Origin: Corallium rubrum | Taxonomy: Eukaryota; Cnidaria; Anthozoa; Scleralcyonacea; Coralliidae | Direction: 5' to 3' | DNA length: 64,000 nt | Assembly (NCBI GenBank): GCA_964035015.1 | Contig: OZ036000.1 | Span: 3,849,099-3,913,098 of the forward strand | Shown: positions 55,691 to 64,000 of the stretch, in pieces | Layout of the letters: each line of letters opens with the position of its first letter | How positions within the stretch are numbered: position 1 is the first letter of the stretch | The notes under the pieces: model-generated | The model's database searches: none | What the model was told of the DNA's origin: nothing | What the model saw: only the letters and a program-made list of their open reading frames with translations | Position numbers and translations under genes: made by a program

Positions 55691-56165
55691 ACAAAAACAA
55701 AAACAACAACAACAAAAACAACGACAACAACAACGACAACAACAACAACAACGACAATGACAACAATGACAACGACGACAACAACAACGACAACAACAAC
55801 AACGATGACGACGACGACGACGACAACAACGATGATGACAACAACGATGATGACAACAACGACAACAACAACGACGACAACAACAACAACGATGACATTA
55901 ACAACGACAACAACAATGATAACGACAACAACAATGATAACGACAACAACGACAACGACGACAACAACAATACCACCACCAGCACCAACGACAACGACGA
56001 CAACAACAACAATGACGACAACAACAACGACAACGACAACGACGACAACAACAACAATAACAACAACGACAACTACGACGACGACAACAACGATAACAAC
56101 AATGACAACGACAACGACAACAATGACGACAATGACAACAACAAAACCATAACAAGGACAACGAT
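55690..56165. repeat. Trinucleotide array of AAC, GAC and GAT units
   Basis: About 475 bp of AAC, GAC and GAT triplets with few interruptions. Frames encoding poly-Thr, Ser/Leu or Cys/Arg are period artefacts. Confidence 0.97.
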
Positions 56166-56350
56166 AACAACCAAAGTCGAAAATTTCGTTCCCTTTGGCT
56201 TTGGCGATATGGTTATGCTAATTACATGACTGAAAACGTATATATATATCCGGTGTTAGCTGTGACGAATTCTTTCTTTCGAAGTTTAATCCGAATTAGG
56301 TCACAGTTTTCAGTGGGTACTGACATTGGAAGTTTTTTTGGAAAAGAATT

Positions 56351-59201
56351 ATGCGGCCTGGGCGTCCTCGAAAGGAGTTAGACTCTACGAGAGTACAAAG
56401 CTCACTTCGCGCGAACGTTCTAACCTTGGTGAGTTATTTGTATATACATATTATATTTATATTGATCATCATTAATAGATGACCTCTTAGCTTATTTTAA
56501 CGTGTGTTGTCTCTCCCAATGTCCACAGATTACCGACGACCTCAAAGCCGTAGGATGTCGAGCTACATGGAGGGTAAAAGACGACGACGTACAACTGGCT
56601 ACAAACCAGATTGCTTCGAAGAGATTGCAGCTTGATGAAGCGCTTTCTGCTATACACGGCGTGCAATTTTTCTTTTCGTGTGTTTCAAGCGTGTGTTCCA
56701 ATGCAAAAGAAGCGAAACGCAGTAACAAGACCCAAGAAGAACCTCCCATCGAGGAGAAAACATATCCGGCAATAGGATATTTCGTCGTTTACCGAAAAAC
56801 AGAGACGTGCAACGAGAACGCACTATTTGCTGCCCTGCATAATCAGGACGTGGAACCTAAGATTCGCACAATTAGAACCAGAGCGAGAACATCGGCGAAC
56901 AGGGTTATGGAAAAAGCTGCTCGGGAGCTGTTTCAAGTCCTGAAGGACCATAATAATCCGAGGATCGAAGAGATGGTCAACATGTCAAACACATACTGCT
57001 ATGATGAGTCCGTTATGAAATCGTCCGACGAAGACGACGACATGCAGCTACCAAGTCAACCGACGCATTTCCCCACAACCCCTTGTCGTCTGGTTGTAGT
57101 CAACCAACACGAATTCAACGACAAATTGCACACAGCCACAGCGATACTTCAAACAGACGGGCTGTTGGTAGAGATTGACCCGACAACAAACGTCAGCTTG
57201 GAAAAACCTTGCTTTTCTTCACAGAACGAAGTAGCGGCGACCATCACAAAGATTGAGAGGGTGATGAGGTTGTGCGATCACGCCCTTTGTCGTTCGCACG
57301 TCTACGCAAAACCACCAGAAGCCAAAATGACTTATTTAAAAATGATGGACGTCAAGAGTTACTTACATAAATTGTTAAGCAACGAAGCAACACGAAATCA
57401 AGTTTTAAGGCACTTCCAGGTGCTCGAAAAAATTCTTTCCCATCCCGCGTGCGAAATAATTGAACAGATAAAATTTGATCTGGACCTCATCGAAGTATCT
57501 AACGGGTTTTGCTTTTCCATATCATCGAGAACTTTCATAACCTGTCCAATACCAGAATCGAAACGTGGAACATTGTCGCCGAGAACGTTCCTCCCCTACG
57601 ACTGTACTACACCACCACAACCGCAGTTCTTCCGCGAAGGCATCTTAAACTCGTTCCAGGATACAGCAGTGAGAGTGAACTTCCTGAACAAAATGTATCA
57701 GTGCCTGATGCCTTCAAAAATGCCGCACAAGGTAAGGAAGCTTGTGGTAGCCGGACCAAAGGACTCGGGCAAGACATCATGGGCGTCTATCTTCCATCGC
57801 ATCATCCCCCCTGCATTTATCGCTTCTATCACCAACGAGCGCCAGTTCTCCGCAGCGATGATCAACGACGAAACACAACTGGTGCTTGTCGACGAATGGT
57901 CCGATCGCACGTTACAATCTGATCTCGCAAAGACCATCTTCCAAGGTGGGTGGCTAGTCACAGCCGTAAAGCATGAGGCACCTAGGTGCGTCATGAACAA
58001 CAGCCCGTTCTATATTACAACAAATCATGTTCCGAACTTTGGTAAAGAAGACGAGAACGTCAAACGGCGCATTGCAGTCTTCAATACAACATCTTTGCCG
58101 CAAACGTTACCAGGAGTGGATCGCTGGATTTTCGATCACGCGATGGACTGCGTGGCGTGGATGGCAGAAGAAATCAATTTAAACCACCACCACATCCAGT
58201 CACACGAGCTATGGTACGAGCCCGGAAACCCACGTGACGTCACCATCGAAAGCCACCAAGCGGTCGAGCTATTCGAAGGCAGTAAAATGCGACAAATTAC
58301 AAAGGCCGATCTCGAAGAAACAACCTGTCCACCTGAACATCCCGACCCTATACACAGAAGTTTTTTCGCAGAGTCAATGTGCCGGCGTTTTGCGCGGAAA
58401 AGACGTGCGAATCGTGCTATGCCCTGCAGTTACAACGACGTCGACGAGGCGTACGAATGCGAATCCCCGGGTTTTGACGTCTCTTTGGAAAGCAGCGGTG
58501 ATGACAATGTGAATCCCGATAACGATCCATTTTCCTTAAATCTAATTGAGCCATTTCGGATAAATCCTAACAGAGAACAGGCTTGTTCTTCTCTTGAAGT
58601 GACCACTGAGCCACACGCATCGTCGGGAGATTGGGACGAAACCGAAGAAGACCGACCAGCCGAACAGACTGCACAACCGACTTTGTCGACAGACGGGACA
58701 CACGAGGCGTCTTCTGGCTGCAGCCTGAACAGCGAAATTTATTGCGTAAAGGTTGCTCACCTAATACAATCCAAATTTGGTAAAAATGTGACGAGCGTCC
58801 ACGCATTGTCGTTCATAGAACGAAAAAGAAAAGCACTTTTGAAAAGAGACGAAAAGGAGAAGGCATTCTGGATCGAAGCAGATCCATCTATAGACGTGTG
58901 GATGCTAGTATTGGGCCTGCGACGGGATGTGTTTGACCTAAAGAATTTCGTTAGTAAGCATCCCGATATCCTTATGCACCTCGAGCGACTACGAGAAGTG
59001 GTAAAGGTTCTAGTTCCACCGTGTTGCTGTCCCGTGGTCAAGGCGTTAGGGGAATGCAGAAGAGAAGGGGAAAGGCCAGAACAAAACGAGGAAGAGGAAT
59101 CAGAAGAAGTACATGATGTCGACAGTCAGGGGCTAGAGCGTCGCCCGCAGCTTAGTTCCCAATCTTACTGGACAAAAGTTAAGGGATGGCGACCGTGGTG
59201 A
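56351..59201 (+). CDS. AT-hook-like protein with superfamily-3 helicase core
   Basis: Two exons: 56351-56428 (26 codons, phase 0, donor GTGAGT) and 56529-59201 (acceptor TGTCCACAG); 916 aa. Exon 1 begins MRPGRPRKEL, an AT-hook-like GRPRK. The C-terminal half has an SF3 ATPase: Walker A GPKDSGKTSW (about residue 435), Walker B LVLVDEW (Asp about 481), a B'-like WLVTAVKHEAP and motif C PFYITTN (about 519-525), followed by ENVKRRIAVF. SF3 helicases drive replication of parvo-, papilloma- and related small DNA replicons. I see no HUH endonuclease motif in the N-terminal half. A second globular region near 770-860 and an acidic C-terminus follow. The GC content is above that of its surroundings and the large exon is unbroken. 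Could be a domesticated viral or transposon gene, or a resident replicon gene. Confidence 0.8.
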
Positions 59202-59570
59202 CTAAACTGTAAAACATTTTATTTCTCTCGTTGTTGTTAATTAACTTTGACAGATTATCTGTACTAAACTGTAAATTATAATCGCCAACATTGTTTTGAA
59301 CAATCATACTGAACTGGTATTTACAGCGCGTAGCGAATATTTATCTAAATCACAGTTCTACTTCACATTGATTATGTCTCCCAGTTTATTTATACAAAAT
59401 AAGATCTTTCTCTATGGTATTTGATGTGACATTAAAAAGCGACCATATATGCCTTCATACTACACGATATACCATGTATGGGAAAGCCTGTTTTAAATAA
59501 ATTGGTTGAAATTTCAGATTAGACTCAAATTTCAAATTAGATTAGTGAATGAACTGGAGGATACCGAGAT

Positions 59571-60345
59571 AAAGTAGCCGGTGGTTTGCAATATATTATA
59601 ACGCTATTTAATTGATATTCATGACTACCGTCTTCCCGGCTACTAGTTAAAACCTCGTTAAATTGACCGGCTATTGACCGGCTACCATATGGAAACGACC
59701 GGCTATCGAGCTAAAGTAGCCGGTGGTTTGGAATATATTATAACGCTATTTAATTGATATTCATGACTACCGTCTTCCCGGCTACTAGTTAAAACCTTGT
59801 TACATTGACCGGCTATTGACCGGCTACCATATGGAAACGACCGGCTATCGAGCTAAAGTAGCCGGTGGTTTGGAATATATTATAACGCTACTTAATTGAT
59901 ATTCATAACTACCGTCTACCCGGCTACTAGTTCAAACCATGTTAAATTGACCGGCTACTGACCGGCTACCATATGGAAATGACCGGCTACCGAGCTAAAG
60001 TAGCCGGTGGTTTGGAATATATTATAACGCTATTTAATTGATATTCATAACTACCGTCTACCCGGCTACTAGTTCAAACCTTGTTAAATTCACCGGCTAT
60101 TGACCGGCTACCATATGGAAACGACTGGCTATCGAGCTAAAGTAGCCGGTGGTTTGGAATATATTATAACGCTATTTAATTGATATTCATGACTACCGTC
60201 TTCCCGGCTACTAGTTAAAACCTTGTTACATTGACCGGCTATTGACCGGCTACCATATGGAAACGACCGGCTATCGAGCTAAAGTAGCCGGTGGTTTGGA
60301 ATATATTATAACGCTATCTAATTGATATTCATACCCACCGTCTAT
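59571..60345 (+). repeat. 142-bp satellite, forward block (six units)
   Basis: The word AAAGTAGCCGGTGG recurs at 59571, 59713, 59855, 59997, 60139 and 60281: exactly 142 bp each time. Each unit has four CCGGCTA words and one TAGCCGG, a CATATGG palindrome and an AT-rich TATTATAACGC segment. Confidence 0.97.
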
Positions 60346-60670
60346 CCGGCTACCGACCGGCTACCATAGACGGTGGTTATGAATATCAATTAAATAGCGT
60401 TATAATGTATTCCAAACCACCGGCTACTTTAGCTCGGTAGCCGGTCGTTTCCATATGGTAGCCGGTCAGTAGCCAGTAAACTTAACAAGGTTTTAACTAG
60501 TAGCCGGGCAGACGGTAGTTATGAATATCAATTAAATAGCGTTATAATATATTCCAAACCACCGGCTACTTTAGCTGGGTAGCCGGTCGTTTCCATATGG
60601 TAGCCGCTCGGTAGCCGGTCAATTTAACAACGTTTTAACTAGTAGCCGGGTAGACGGTAGTTATGAATAT
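60346..60670 (-). repeat. 142-bp satellite, inverted block
   Basis: Two or more units in reverse orientation (CCACCGG at 60417 and 60559, 142 bp apart). The switch from the forward block happens around 60335-60375 without any other element between. Confidence 0.95.
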
Positions 60671-61519
60671 CAATTAAGCTACAGATCTAATTTACATATA
60701 TATTCTCTCTCATTAAATATAACCGTATTTTCTCAAAGAAAAACAGCGATTTTGACAGTGGGAACGCTTTGTTGAGATTCAGTAATCTGAAGTAAAAGTT
60801 AGGCACTAAATGCTATACCGTAAGGCCCACTCTCTTCAAGATGTGTACATTTGTGTTATGGAAAATTACGATTACCTTACCACCATACAATGGAACCATG
60901 AACCCTAACCCTAATCACAAACAGGGACAGTTTGTGGTATGGAAAATTACGATTACCTCACCACCATACAATGGAACCAAGAACCCTAACCCTAATCACA
61001 AACAGGGACAGTTTGTGGTATGGAAAATTACGATTACCTCACCACCATACAATGGAACCATGAACCCTAACCCTAATCACAAACCGGGGAAGCTTGTGGT
61101 ATGGTAAATTACGATTACCTCACCACCATACAATGGAACCATTGAACCCTAACCCTAATCACAAACCGGGAAAGCTTGTGGTATGGAAAATTACGATTAC
61201 CTCGCCACCGTACAATGGAACCACGAACCCTAACCCTAATCACAAATCGAGGACGTTTATGGCACGGTTTTTTTATTAGGGTTAGGGTTCATGGTTCCAT
61301 TGTATGGTGGTGAGGTAATCGTAATTTTCCATAACACAAATGTACACATCTTGAAGAGAGTGGGCGTTACGGTATAGCATTTAGTGCCTAACTTTTACTT
61401 CAGATTACTGAATCTCAACAAAGCGTTCCCACTGTCAAAATCGCTGTTTTTCTTTGAGAAAATACGGTTAGATTTAATGAGAGAGAATATATACGTAAAT
61501 TAGATCTGTAACTTAATTG
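60671..61519. repeat. Palindromic element E1 (arm X, 81-bp array, arm X reversed)
   Basis: The left arm X (AGCTACAGATCTAATTTAC to TTGTGTTATGG, 60677-60860) is repeated in reverse at 61325-61515. Between are five forward 81-bp units (starts 60861, 60942, 61023, 61104, 61186), a centre near 61240-61275, and one reversed unit. Each unit contains AACCCTAACCCTAA. Confidence 0.92.
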
Positions 61520-61915
61520 ATATTCATAACGACCGTCTACCCGGCTACTAGTTAAAACCTTGTTAAATTCACTGCCTACTGACCGGCTATCATATGGAAA
61601 CGACAGGCTACAGAGTGATTGTAGCCGGTGGTTTGGAATATATTATAACGCTATTTAATTGATATTCATAACTACCGTCTATCCGGCTACTAGTTCAAAC
61701 CTTGTTAAATTGACCGGCTACTGACCGGCTACCATATGGAAACGACCGGCTATCGAGCTAAAGTAGCCGGTGGTTTGGAATATATTATAACGCTATCTAA
61801 TTGATATTCATAACTACCGTCTACCCGGCTACTAGTTCAAACCTTGTTAAATTCACCGGCTACTGACCGGCTATCATATGGAAACGACCGGCTACAGAGT
61901 GATTGTAGCCGGTGG
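61519..61915 (+). repeat. 142-bp satellite, forward block
   Basis: GTAGCCGG at 61621, 61763 and 61905, again 142 bp apart. Two units carry GAGTGATTGTAGCC in place of GAGCTAAAGTAGCC. Confidence 0.95.
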
Positions 61916-62550
61916 GTCAGAACATATTAACTTCTTCATTGGAAATTGCACTTATTATATATCTATATCAATTTAGACTTTGACTACGAATGTCAAAACG
62001 TGTTATTCTTTAAAAAACTATCATTATAATCACTTGAAGTTCCTCAAAAAAAAAAAAAACTGCATAAAGTTTCTACTTTACTGCAGATCTCTGGAGTTTC
62101 GTTGTATGGAAAATTACGATTACCTCATCACCATACAATGGAACCATGAACCCTAACCCTAATAAAATAACCGTGGCATAAACGTCCTCGATTTGTGATT
62201 AGGTTTAGGGTTCATGGTTCCATTGTATGGTGATGAGGTAATCGTAATTTTCCATTCCACAAACTTTCCCCGGTTTGTGATTAGGGTTAGGGTTCATGGT
62301 TCCATTGTATGGTGGTGAGGTAATCGTAGTTTTCCATACCACAAGCTTTCCCAGTTTGTGATTAGGGTTAGGGTTCAATGGTTCCATTGTATGGTGGTGA
62401 GGTAATCGTAATTTTCCATACAACGAAACCCCAGAGATCTGCAGTAAAGTAGAAACTTTATGCAGTTTTTTTTTTTGAGGAACTTCAAGTGATAATAATG
62501 CCCGTTTTTTTAAACAATAACACGTTTTAACATTCGTAGTCAAAGTCTAA

Positions 62551-62632
<82 letters not shown>

Positions 62633-62690
62633 AGTGCATGCAATTTCCAATGAAGAAGTTAATATGTTCTGACCCACCGGCTACAATCAC
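61906..62690. repeat. Palindromic element E2 (arm Y, 81-bp units, arm Y reversed)
   Basis: Arm Y (GGGTCAGAACATATTAACTT to TTTCGTTGTATGG, 61915-62105) returns reversed at 62420-62675, where a TA tract of about 70 bp has expanded (62557-62628). Between are one forward and three reversed 81-bp units. Confidence 0.92.
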
Positions 62691-63075
62691 TCTGTAGCCG
62701 GTCGTTTCCATATGATAGCCGGTCAGTAGCCAGACAATTTAACAAGGTTTTAACTAGTTGCCGGATAGACGGCAGTTATGAATATCAATTAAGTAGCGTT
62801 ATAATATATTCCAAACCACCGGCTACTTTAGCTCGGTAGCCGGTCGTTTCCATATGGTAGCCGGTCAGTAGCCGGTCAATTTAACAAGGTTTGAACTCGT
62901 AGCCGGGTAGACGGTAGTTATGAATATCAATTAAATAGCGTTATAATATATTCCAAACCACCGGCTACTTTAGCTCGATAGCCGGTCGTTTCCATATGGT
63001 AGCCGGTCAATAGCCGGTCAATTTAACAAGGTTTTAACTAGTAGCCGGGTAGACGGTAGTTATGAATATCAATTA
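62672..63075 (-). repeat. 142-bp satellite, inverted block
   Basis: CCACCGG at 62674, 62816 and 62958, 142 bp apart, in reverse orientation. Confidence 0.95.
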
Positions 63076-64000
63076 AGCTACAGATCTAATTTACATATAT
63101 ATTCTCTCTCATTAAATATAACCGTATTTTCTCAAAGAAAAACAGCGATTTTGACAGTGGGAACGCTTTGTTGAGATTCAGTAATCTGAAGTAAAAGTTA
63201 GGCACTAAATGCTATACCGTAAGGCCCACTCTCTTCAAGATGTGTACATTTGTGTTATGGAAAATTACGATTACCTCACCACCATACAATGGAACCATGA
63301 ACCCTAACCCTAATAAAAAAACCGTGCCATAAACGTCCTCGATTTGTGATTAGGGTTAGGGTTCGTGGTTCCATTGTACGGTGGCGAGGTAATCGTAATT
63401 TTCCATACCACAAGCTTTCCCGGTTTGTGATTAGGGTTAGGGTTCAATGGTTCCATTGTATGGTGGTGAGGTAATCGTAATTTACCATACCACAAGCTTC
63501 CCCGGTTTGTGATTAGGGTTAGGGTTCATGGTTCCATTGTATGGTGGTGAGGTAATCGTAATTTTCCATAGCACAAACTGTCCCTGTTTGTGATTAGGGT
63601 TAGGGTTCATGGTTCCATTGTATGGTGGTGAGGTAATCGTAATTTTCCATACCACAAACTGTCCCTGTTTGTGATTAGGGTTAGGGTTCATGGTCCCATT
63701 GTATGGTGGTGAGGTAATCGTAATTTTCCATACCACAAGCTTCCCCGGTTTGTGATTAGGGTTAGGGTTCATGGTTCCATTGTATGGTGGTGAGGTAATC
63801 GTAATTTTCCATAGCACAAACTGTCCCTGTTTGTGATTAGGGTTAGGGTTCATGGTTCCATTGTATGGTGGTGAGGTAATCGTAATTTTCCATACAACGA
63901 AACCCCAGAGATCTGCAGTAAAGTAGAAACTTTATGCAGTTTTTTTTTTTGAGGAACTTCAAGTGATAATAATGCCCGTTTTTTTAAACAATAACACGTT
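63072..64000. repeat. Element E3 (arm X, centre, seven 81-bp units, arm Y reversed)
   Basis: Arm X at 63072-63262, one forward unit, the centre near 63312-63340 (ACCGTGCCATAAACGTCCTC), about seven reversed 81-bp units to 63890, then reversed arm Y to the window edge. Unlike E1 and E2 it joins X to Y, so it probably shows the original arrangement. Confidence 0.9.

Follow-up and report, generated by a model that had tools for sequence, protein, structure and literature searches.

A 64,000-nucleotide stretch of the genome of the coral Corallium rubrum (assembly GCA_964035015.1, contig OZ036000.1, positions 3,849,099 to 3,913,098 of the forward strand), hereafter the window, holds the left part of an 11,812-bp element that runs ~4 kb past the window edge. 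Its two genes code for a superfamily 3 (SF3) helicase, inside the window, and for ORF2, a predicted tyrosine recombinase (YR), beyond its edge. With a probability of roughly two in three, we read it as a DNA mobile element that is integrated by its own recombinase and probably copied by its own helicase. The element is recently active and microsatellite-specific: near-identical copies share fixed ends, the target repeat differs by family and some copies are joined head to tail.

Copies and boundaries of the element

The genome searched comprises 474 Mb in 312 contigs. Of 180 candidates for the helicase 51 were scored, and the copy counts are lower bounds. At least 15 helicase copies span the 890 residues of exon 2 in full, with 99-100% identity and without stops, several partial copies occur besides, and a second set of helicase copies stands at 60-67% identity. 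When 14 copies are compared pairwise, exon 2 differs by 0.23% on average and the intron by 0.79%. An initial annotation, made from the letters of the window alone, had proposed a domesticated or still mobile replication initiator, possibly of a new family, a proposal that disruption of the frame in all related copies would have undermined; no such disruption was found in the 15 copies. Domestication is not borne out, because these near-identical full-length copies have fixed ends and point to recent activity. What stands is an SF3 helicase without an HUH motif in a mobile context, whereas initiation of replication by this helicase we only infer. The recombinase partner and the microsatellite target that starts just upstream of the helicase gene had been missed.

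To read the boundaries, 10 kb were fetched around 20 copies. At 19 of the 20 loci the shared sequence begins at CAAAGTCG, with only microsatellite-like sequence before it, and the remaining locus (L027) is masked there. The ends of this family (family 1) fall between AAC and CAAAG on the left and between GAGG and ACAA on the right; of the 11 loci fetched for the right flank (L029-L039), 10 show the right breakpoint, the exception being L036, and L014 shows it as well. Both ends carry a short direct core, ACAA(C), of ~5 bp, as in the short direct terminal repeats of Cryptons. The left-end pattern is present once each in 26 of 28 loci and absent from two, so that no inverted second copy was found in them. 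Outside the repeats, the element has only two methionine-started frames of at least 120 amino acids, a count that would miss spliced genes with short exons.

Insertion target and head-to-tail joints

The window copy lies next to a degenerate (AAC)n microsatellite, and most other family-1 copies read adjoin a cleaner (AAC)n on their left. Left ends lie in or beside AAC tracts in 18 of the 19 cases read, the remaining one (L014) being a head-to-tail joint. In 17 of the 19 left flanks AAC makes up 14 or more of the 20 triplets in the 60 bases next to the element, the other two being the window copy with its degenerate tract and the L014 joint; at L017 and L022 a few other bases stand between the tract and the element. 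Comparable AAC tracts take up 7 of 111,880 strand-positions in positions 1-56000 of the window. Genome-wide, 25 of 38 exact family-1 left ends are preceded by AACAAC, and the other 13 consist of two joints, L017, L022 and nine unread flanks. There are 33 family-1 right ends in the genome (12 read in fetched loci, 21 unread), of which 12 continue as ACAACAAC and 3 are joints. Right flanks are less uniform than left ones: L031 continues as AAT repeats, and L032 and L033 as other sequence.

The head-to-tail joint GAGG-ACAAC-CAAAG, in the assembly the one trace of a putative circular form, occurs three times in the genome. The joints lie at L014/L021 (C1:79884500-79909999), where L014 is joined to the next copy, at C22:14920175 and at C49:8149720; all three are exact, and their sequence is the one that a circle would give. 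A 1-kb non-autonomous copy (L049, C298:23050-24180) lacks both genes but retains both ends and a remnant of exon 1. It is flanked by (AAC)n on the left, and ACAAC stands at its right end; since it has moved without either gene, the ends seem to suffice in cis.

The helicase gene and its product

The exon and intron coordinates and the uninterrupted 2.7-kb second exon given in the initial annotation were all correct. The predicted splice model is supported by comparison with a family-2 copy (L044), in which exon 1 also has 26 codons and shares 21 of the 26 residues; GTAAGT comes next, and the intron, of 103 bp, ends in TTTCAG. The N-terminus, which had been called AT-hook-like, reads MRPGRPRK in the window copy, MSPPRPRK in family 2 and MFRRRPAK in a short derivative; the basic stretch is thus conserved but the GRP core is not, and its identity as an AT-hook is uncertain. 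As a check of selection on related copies, which had been suggested at the outset, variant codons of exon 2 were counted in 14 of the 15 full-length copies (all but L023, which has one codon fewer), giving 15 nonsynonymous and 11 synonymous variants against a neutral ratio of 3.6 (p=0.017), a signal indicative of purifying selection.

Walker A, Walker B, motif C and the arginine finger of the SF3 superfamily are conserved in an alignment of 47 sequences (A2), for example G409 in 47/47, K415 in 46/47, D455 in 47/47, N499 in 45/47 and R513 in 47/47. Structure prediction, one of the checks proposed initially, supports an SF3 AAA+ fold, and the predicted fold is closest to viral and satellite helicases. 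In residues 1-230 of the alignment no conserved HxH of an HUH nuclease was found, in agreement with the first description of the protein, and histidine is the majority residue only at H104 (35/41) and H141 (45/45). An identity as HUH Rep, parvovirus NS1 or CRESS Rep was rejected on this ground. The papillomavirus E1 model PPV_E1_C scores the window protein at 20.7 bits, below its Pfam gathering score of 26.5, and matches 35 of the 47 aligned members at E<=0.01. A search of the PDB with the single helicase sequence gave no match at E<=1, and one with the helicase profile gave six weak matches (best E 0.089), two of them in charged or glutamine-rich low-complexity stretches. PHROGs returned weak primase matches (E 0.00094 and 0.0026), and in NCBIfam the P4 primase family TIGR01613 reached 14.5 bits against a cut-off of 108.7.

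The recombinase and its pairing with the helicase

The predicted YR encoded by ORF2 has a C2H2-like pattern and, at its C-terminus, a Myb domain. Among 48 sequences the catalytic residues R..HxxR..H..Y are conserved, R336, H431, R434 and H461 being invariant and Y470 present in at least 90%, at a spacing which we take to be that of XerD; the predicted structure has the YR fold. Neither a Crypton YR family nor DUF3504 is among the Pfam matches at E<=0.1 in the 48 members, NCBIfam gave no match to ORF2, and PHROGs gave one, at E 0.26.

An ORF2 on the same strand lies within 16 kb downstream at 41 of 50 helicase loci, a count made with all 74 ORF2 rows against 50 helicase loci (80 rows taken as one per locus, plus the broken C49 copy). 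The 32 ORF2 places without a listed upstream helicase may be helicase-free relatives or may have unscored helicases. On a 70-kb contig, C98 (26379-47438), there are two ORF2 copies and one listed helicase, and the stretch read there, L036, contains array units but no right end.

Repeat arrays

Between the two genes lie arrays of 142-bp and 81-bp units in both orientations (Table 1), which we regard as candidate origin and protein-binding sites. TTAGGGTTAGGG occurs 19 times in the element, both strands taken together, against a mean of 0 in 100 shuffles and 0 in positions 1-56000 of the window; for CCGGCTA the element has 83 occurrences against 0.8 in shuffles. In the final 0.5 kb there are 8 GGAAC/GTTCC in family 1, where 0.9 are expected, and 15 in family 2, where 1.2 are expected, and L049 retains this part. 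All these motif counts were run on a stretch offset by 9 bases from the final element ends. The GGAAC/GTTCC motifs are packed at L029:3599-4083 and in L046 even though the sequence has diverged, and may be arm sites of the recombinase.

Table 1. Features of the element and its insertion target, in window positions
Feature	Position	Strand	Remarks
Degenerate (AAC)n microsatellite, insertion target left of the element	55696..56171	+	Tandem repeat finder: period 3, unit AAC, 73% matches; last bases AAC are the shared core
Element, portion inside the window	56172..64000	+	11,812-bp element, continues to C13:3917081 (window-equivalent 67983); from L029 continuation and right-end breakpoint
Left end of element, CAAAGTCGAAAATTTCG	56172..56188	+	Same breakpoint in 19/20 fetched loci; 38 exact genome matches to CAAAGTCGAAAATTTCGTTCCC
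Exon 1 of SF3 helicase gene, basic AT-hook-like N-terminus	56351..56428	+	26 codons; family 2 has the splice donor as well, and 21/26 residues are identical
Intron of helicase gene, GT..AG	56429..56528	+	From sequence; family-2 counterpart 103 bp
Exon 2 of SF3 helicase gene	56529..59201	+	Open frame, 890 codons and stop
SF3 helicase domain	57213..58223	+	Exon-2 residues 229-565
Walker A GPKDSGKTSW	57753..57782	+	Conserved in 47-sequence alignment A2
Walker B TQLVLVDEW	57873..57899	+	Conserved in alignment A2
Motif C SPFYITTN	58002..58025	+	Conserved in alignment A2
142-bp repeat array with CCGGCTA motifs, candidate origin or iteron region	59565..60353	+	5.6 copies, 95% match
142-bp repeat array, inverted orientation	60368..60677	-	
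81-bp repeat array, unit carries TTAGGGTTAGGG on other strand (telomere-like)	60850..61246	+	
142-bp repeat array	61513..61929	+	
81/82-bp telomere-like repeat array, inverted	62185..62429	-	
142-bp repeat array, inverted	62660..63077	-	
81-bp telomere-like repeat array, inverted	63343..63903	-	6.9 copies
Tyrosine recombinase gene ORF2	window-equivalent 64851-66515	+	Downstream of helicase, past window edge

Family 2 and its GAT-rich target

Family 2 is ~62% identical to family 1 in the helicase and ~75% in ORF2. Its left breakpoint falls between GAC and CAAAGTAAATT, and all 6 loci read have a GAT-rich tract there, with 14, 12, 5, 17, 1 and 11 in-phase GAT triplets of 20, the tracts mixing GAT, AAT and phase shifts. 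The right breakpoint falls between CGCTAG and ATGATGATG at 3 of 3 loci, and the right end followed by ATGATG has 18 matches in the genome. Genome-wide, 17 of 26 exact family-2 left ends follow GATGAC, and no family-2 head-to-tail joint was found. Each family has a core that matches its target: family 1 pairs ACAA with (AAC)n, and family 2 pairs ATGA with (ATG)n.

The element at C8:17736220 combines a helicase of 61% identity with an ORF2 of 92% and a family-1 left end, and its left flank is (AAC)n (its right end is unread); elements on C285 and C23, whose ends are unread, have the same mismatch, 60-61% in the helicase and 91-92% in ORF2. Because the C8 element keeps (AAC)n despite its 61% helicase, the insertion target goes with the recombinase and the left end and not with the helicase, a module that has apparently been exchanged. 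At L050 and L052 (C53:6262450-6263700), downstream of a more distant ORF2 (73%), come CCGGCTACC-type repeats and, beyond them, (ATT)n, in one copy and on one side only; (ATT)n is perhaps a third target repeat, which is a lead.

Distribution of relatives

Database searches gave 80 relatives of the helicase (147 by profile) and 965 of ORF2. Among the matches listed, at most 120 per search, the named ones for the helicase come from the octocorals Paramuricea clavata and Dendronephthya gigantea, and those for ORF2 from Paramuricea and the stony coral Oculina patagonica. The longest contig is equal in both lists in four cases compared by eye (632645, 488635, 519560 and 34153), which suggests that the two genes are linked elsewhere too. 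In the open-access literature we found no description of an element with a YR and an SF3 helicase in a cnidarian, an absence that carries little weight, nor of a YR paired with its own replication-type helicase in any animal element; the accessible parts of PMC11071296 and PMC6431247 describe nothing resembling it.

Proposed mechanism and alternative explanations

Integration by the YR is well supported by the anatomy of the element, the presence of this partner accounting for how the element inserts, and replication of a circle would be the most likely use of the helicase. In the mechanism that we propose, the YR would recombine the two ends, at AAC-CAAAG on the left and GAGG-ACAA on the right, into a circle that carries the joint described above. 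The helicase, acting as initiator, would bind the repeat arrays and open the circle, host polymerases would replicate it, and the YR would insert the copies into a microsatellite that matches the core, (AAC)n for ACAA in family 1 and (ATG)n for ATGA in family 2; the TTAGGG units of the arrays may be binding sites for its Myb domain. A fuller picture, which we offer tentatively and hold to be appreciably less probable than the mechanism in general, is that of an animal integrative plasmid-like replicon: a capsid-free circle with an SF3 initiator and repeat-array origins, integrated in trinucleotide microsatellites through a 4-5 bp core, which would use the Myb domain of its recombinase, like that of telomere factors, to attach to its own telomere-like repeats or to stay close to telomeric chromatin, and whose families would split the microsatellites as niches (AAC, GAT, perhaps ATT).

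Some of the data weigh against a self-copying element. A helicase is listed for only 42 of 74 ORF2 rows (a lower bound, given the 51 of 180 candidates scored), and part of the ORF2 family may travel without one. These rows would also fit a Crypton-like YR transposon that carries the helicase as a passenger or regulator and that gains copies by cut-and-paste while the host replicates, not by replicating itself, as would the YR tetrad, the ~5-bp direct core without an inverted left end, the movement of the short copy that has neither gene, and the separate histories of helicase and ORF2 in the C8, C285 and C23 elements. A passenger would not need to be kept whole and free of stops in 15 family-1 copies, with a purifying signal and an ORF2 at 41 of 50 loci, and we regard this explanation as unlikely, if the most serious of the competing ones.

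An endogenous or degenerate virus (polinton-like, adomavirus-like or nimavirus-like) that has lost its capsid genes would account for the resemblance of the helicase fold to viral and satellite helicases, and insertion into simple repeats by a YR is known for endogenous nimaviruses, being specific to the YR type in the accessible part of PMC10871703. The 11.8 kb offer only the two long frames, with the reservation on short-exon spliced genes made above, and of 37 and 22 pattern matches in IMG/VR none was confirmed by tblastn. Since the copies are nearly uniform, the element is not a decayed remnant, and a viral origin of this kind seems improbable. The open frames and the purifying signal would equally suit a host gene family, or a domesticated initiator, spread by segmental duplication; breakpoints shared between otherwise unrelated flanks, the microsatellite target and the many contigs involved speak against it, and the fixed ends contradict it, leaving it hardly any probability.

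Under the reading of an element integrated by its YR and copied by its helicase, a parasite of animal genomes would have a new way to copy and place itself, and whether an animal mobile element replicates as a circle without a virus becomes testable. Families that differ in target repeat within one genome, together with the natural exchange of helicases, offer a ready comparison of target choice by recombinases, which also bears on microsatellites as safe landing sites.

Comparison with known systems

P4/SaPI-type satellites, with the primase-helicase of SaPI5, are bacterial and depend on phages for packaging, and the helicase described here scores far below the cut-off for the P4 primase family. 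In polinton-like viruses and virophages a YR and an SF3 helicase can co-occur, and these carry capsid genes, whereas the element has no third unspliced frame of at least 120 amino acids outside the repeats that could code for a capsid protein. Helitrons, defined by a fusion of HUH Rep and helicase, were rejected, the SF3 helicase having no conserved HUH motif.

Endogenous nimaviruses resemble the element in having a YR with a C2H2 zinc-binding domain, one simple repeat per type and possible concatemers or episomes, as set out in the accessible part of PMC10871703. One repeat per type is also what we find, AAC in family 1 and GAT in family 2, where insertion would be the work of the YR. In that same part, complete majaniviruses measure 278-401 kb and have homologues of white spot syndrome virus (WSSV) genes, with YR types directed at a pentanucleotide telomere repeat or at 28S rDNA, whereas the element has two genes in 11.8 kb and trinucleotide targets. 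A nimaviral gene set was rejected on the two long frames outside the repeats.

Among the systems nearest to the element are Cryptons (CryptonA/I of animals), which the accessible part of PMC3212892 describes as YR elements bearing short terminal repeats, with a circular intermediate proposed for them, and which likewise have non-autonomous derivatives. There, the metazoan finds are transposons encoding only a YR, and animal Cryptons are without terminal repeats and without a C-terminal domain, whereas the element also encodes an SF3 helicase, has a Myb domain and long arrays, and targets microsatellites; the words 'helicase' and 'microsatellite' each occur 0 times in PMC3212892. The element fits no family tested, and it works like a Crypton to which a replication initiator has been added.
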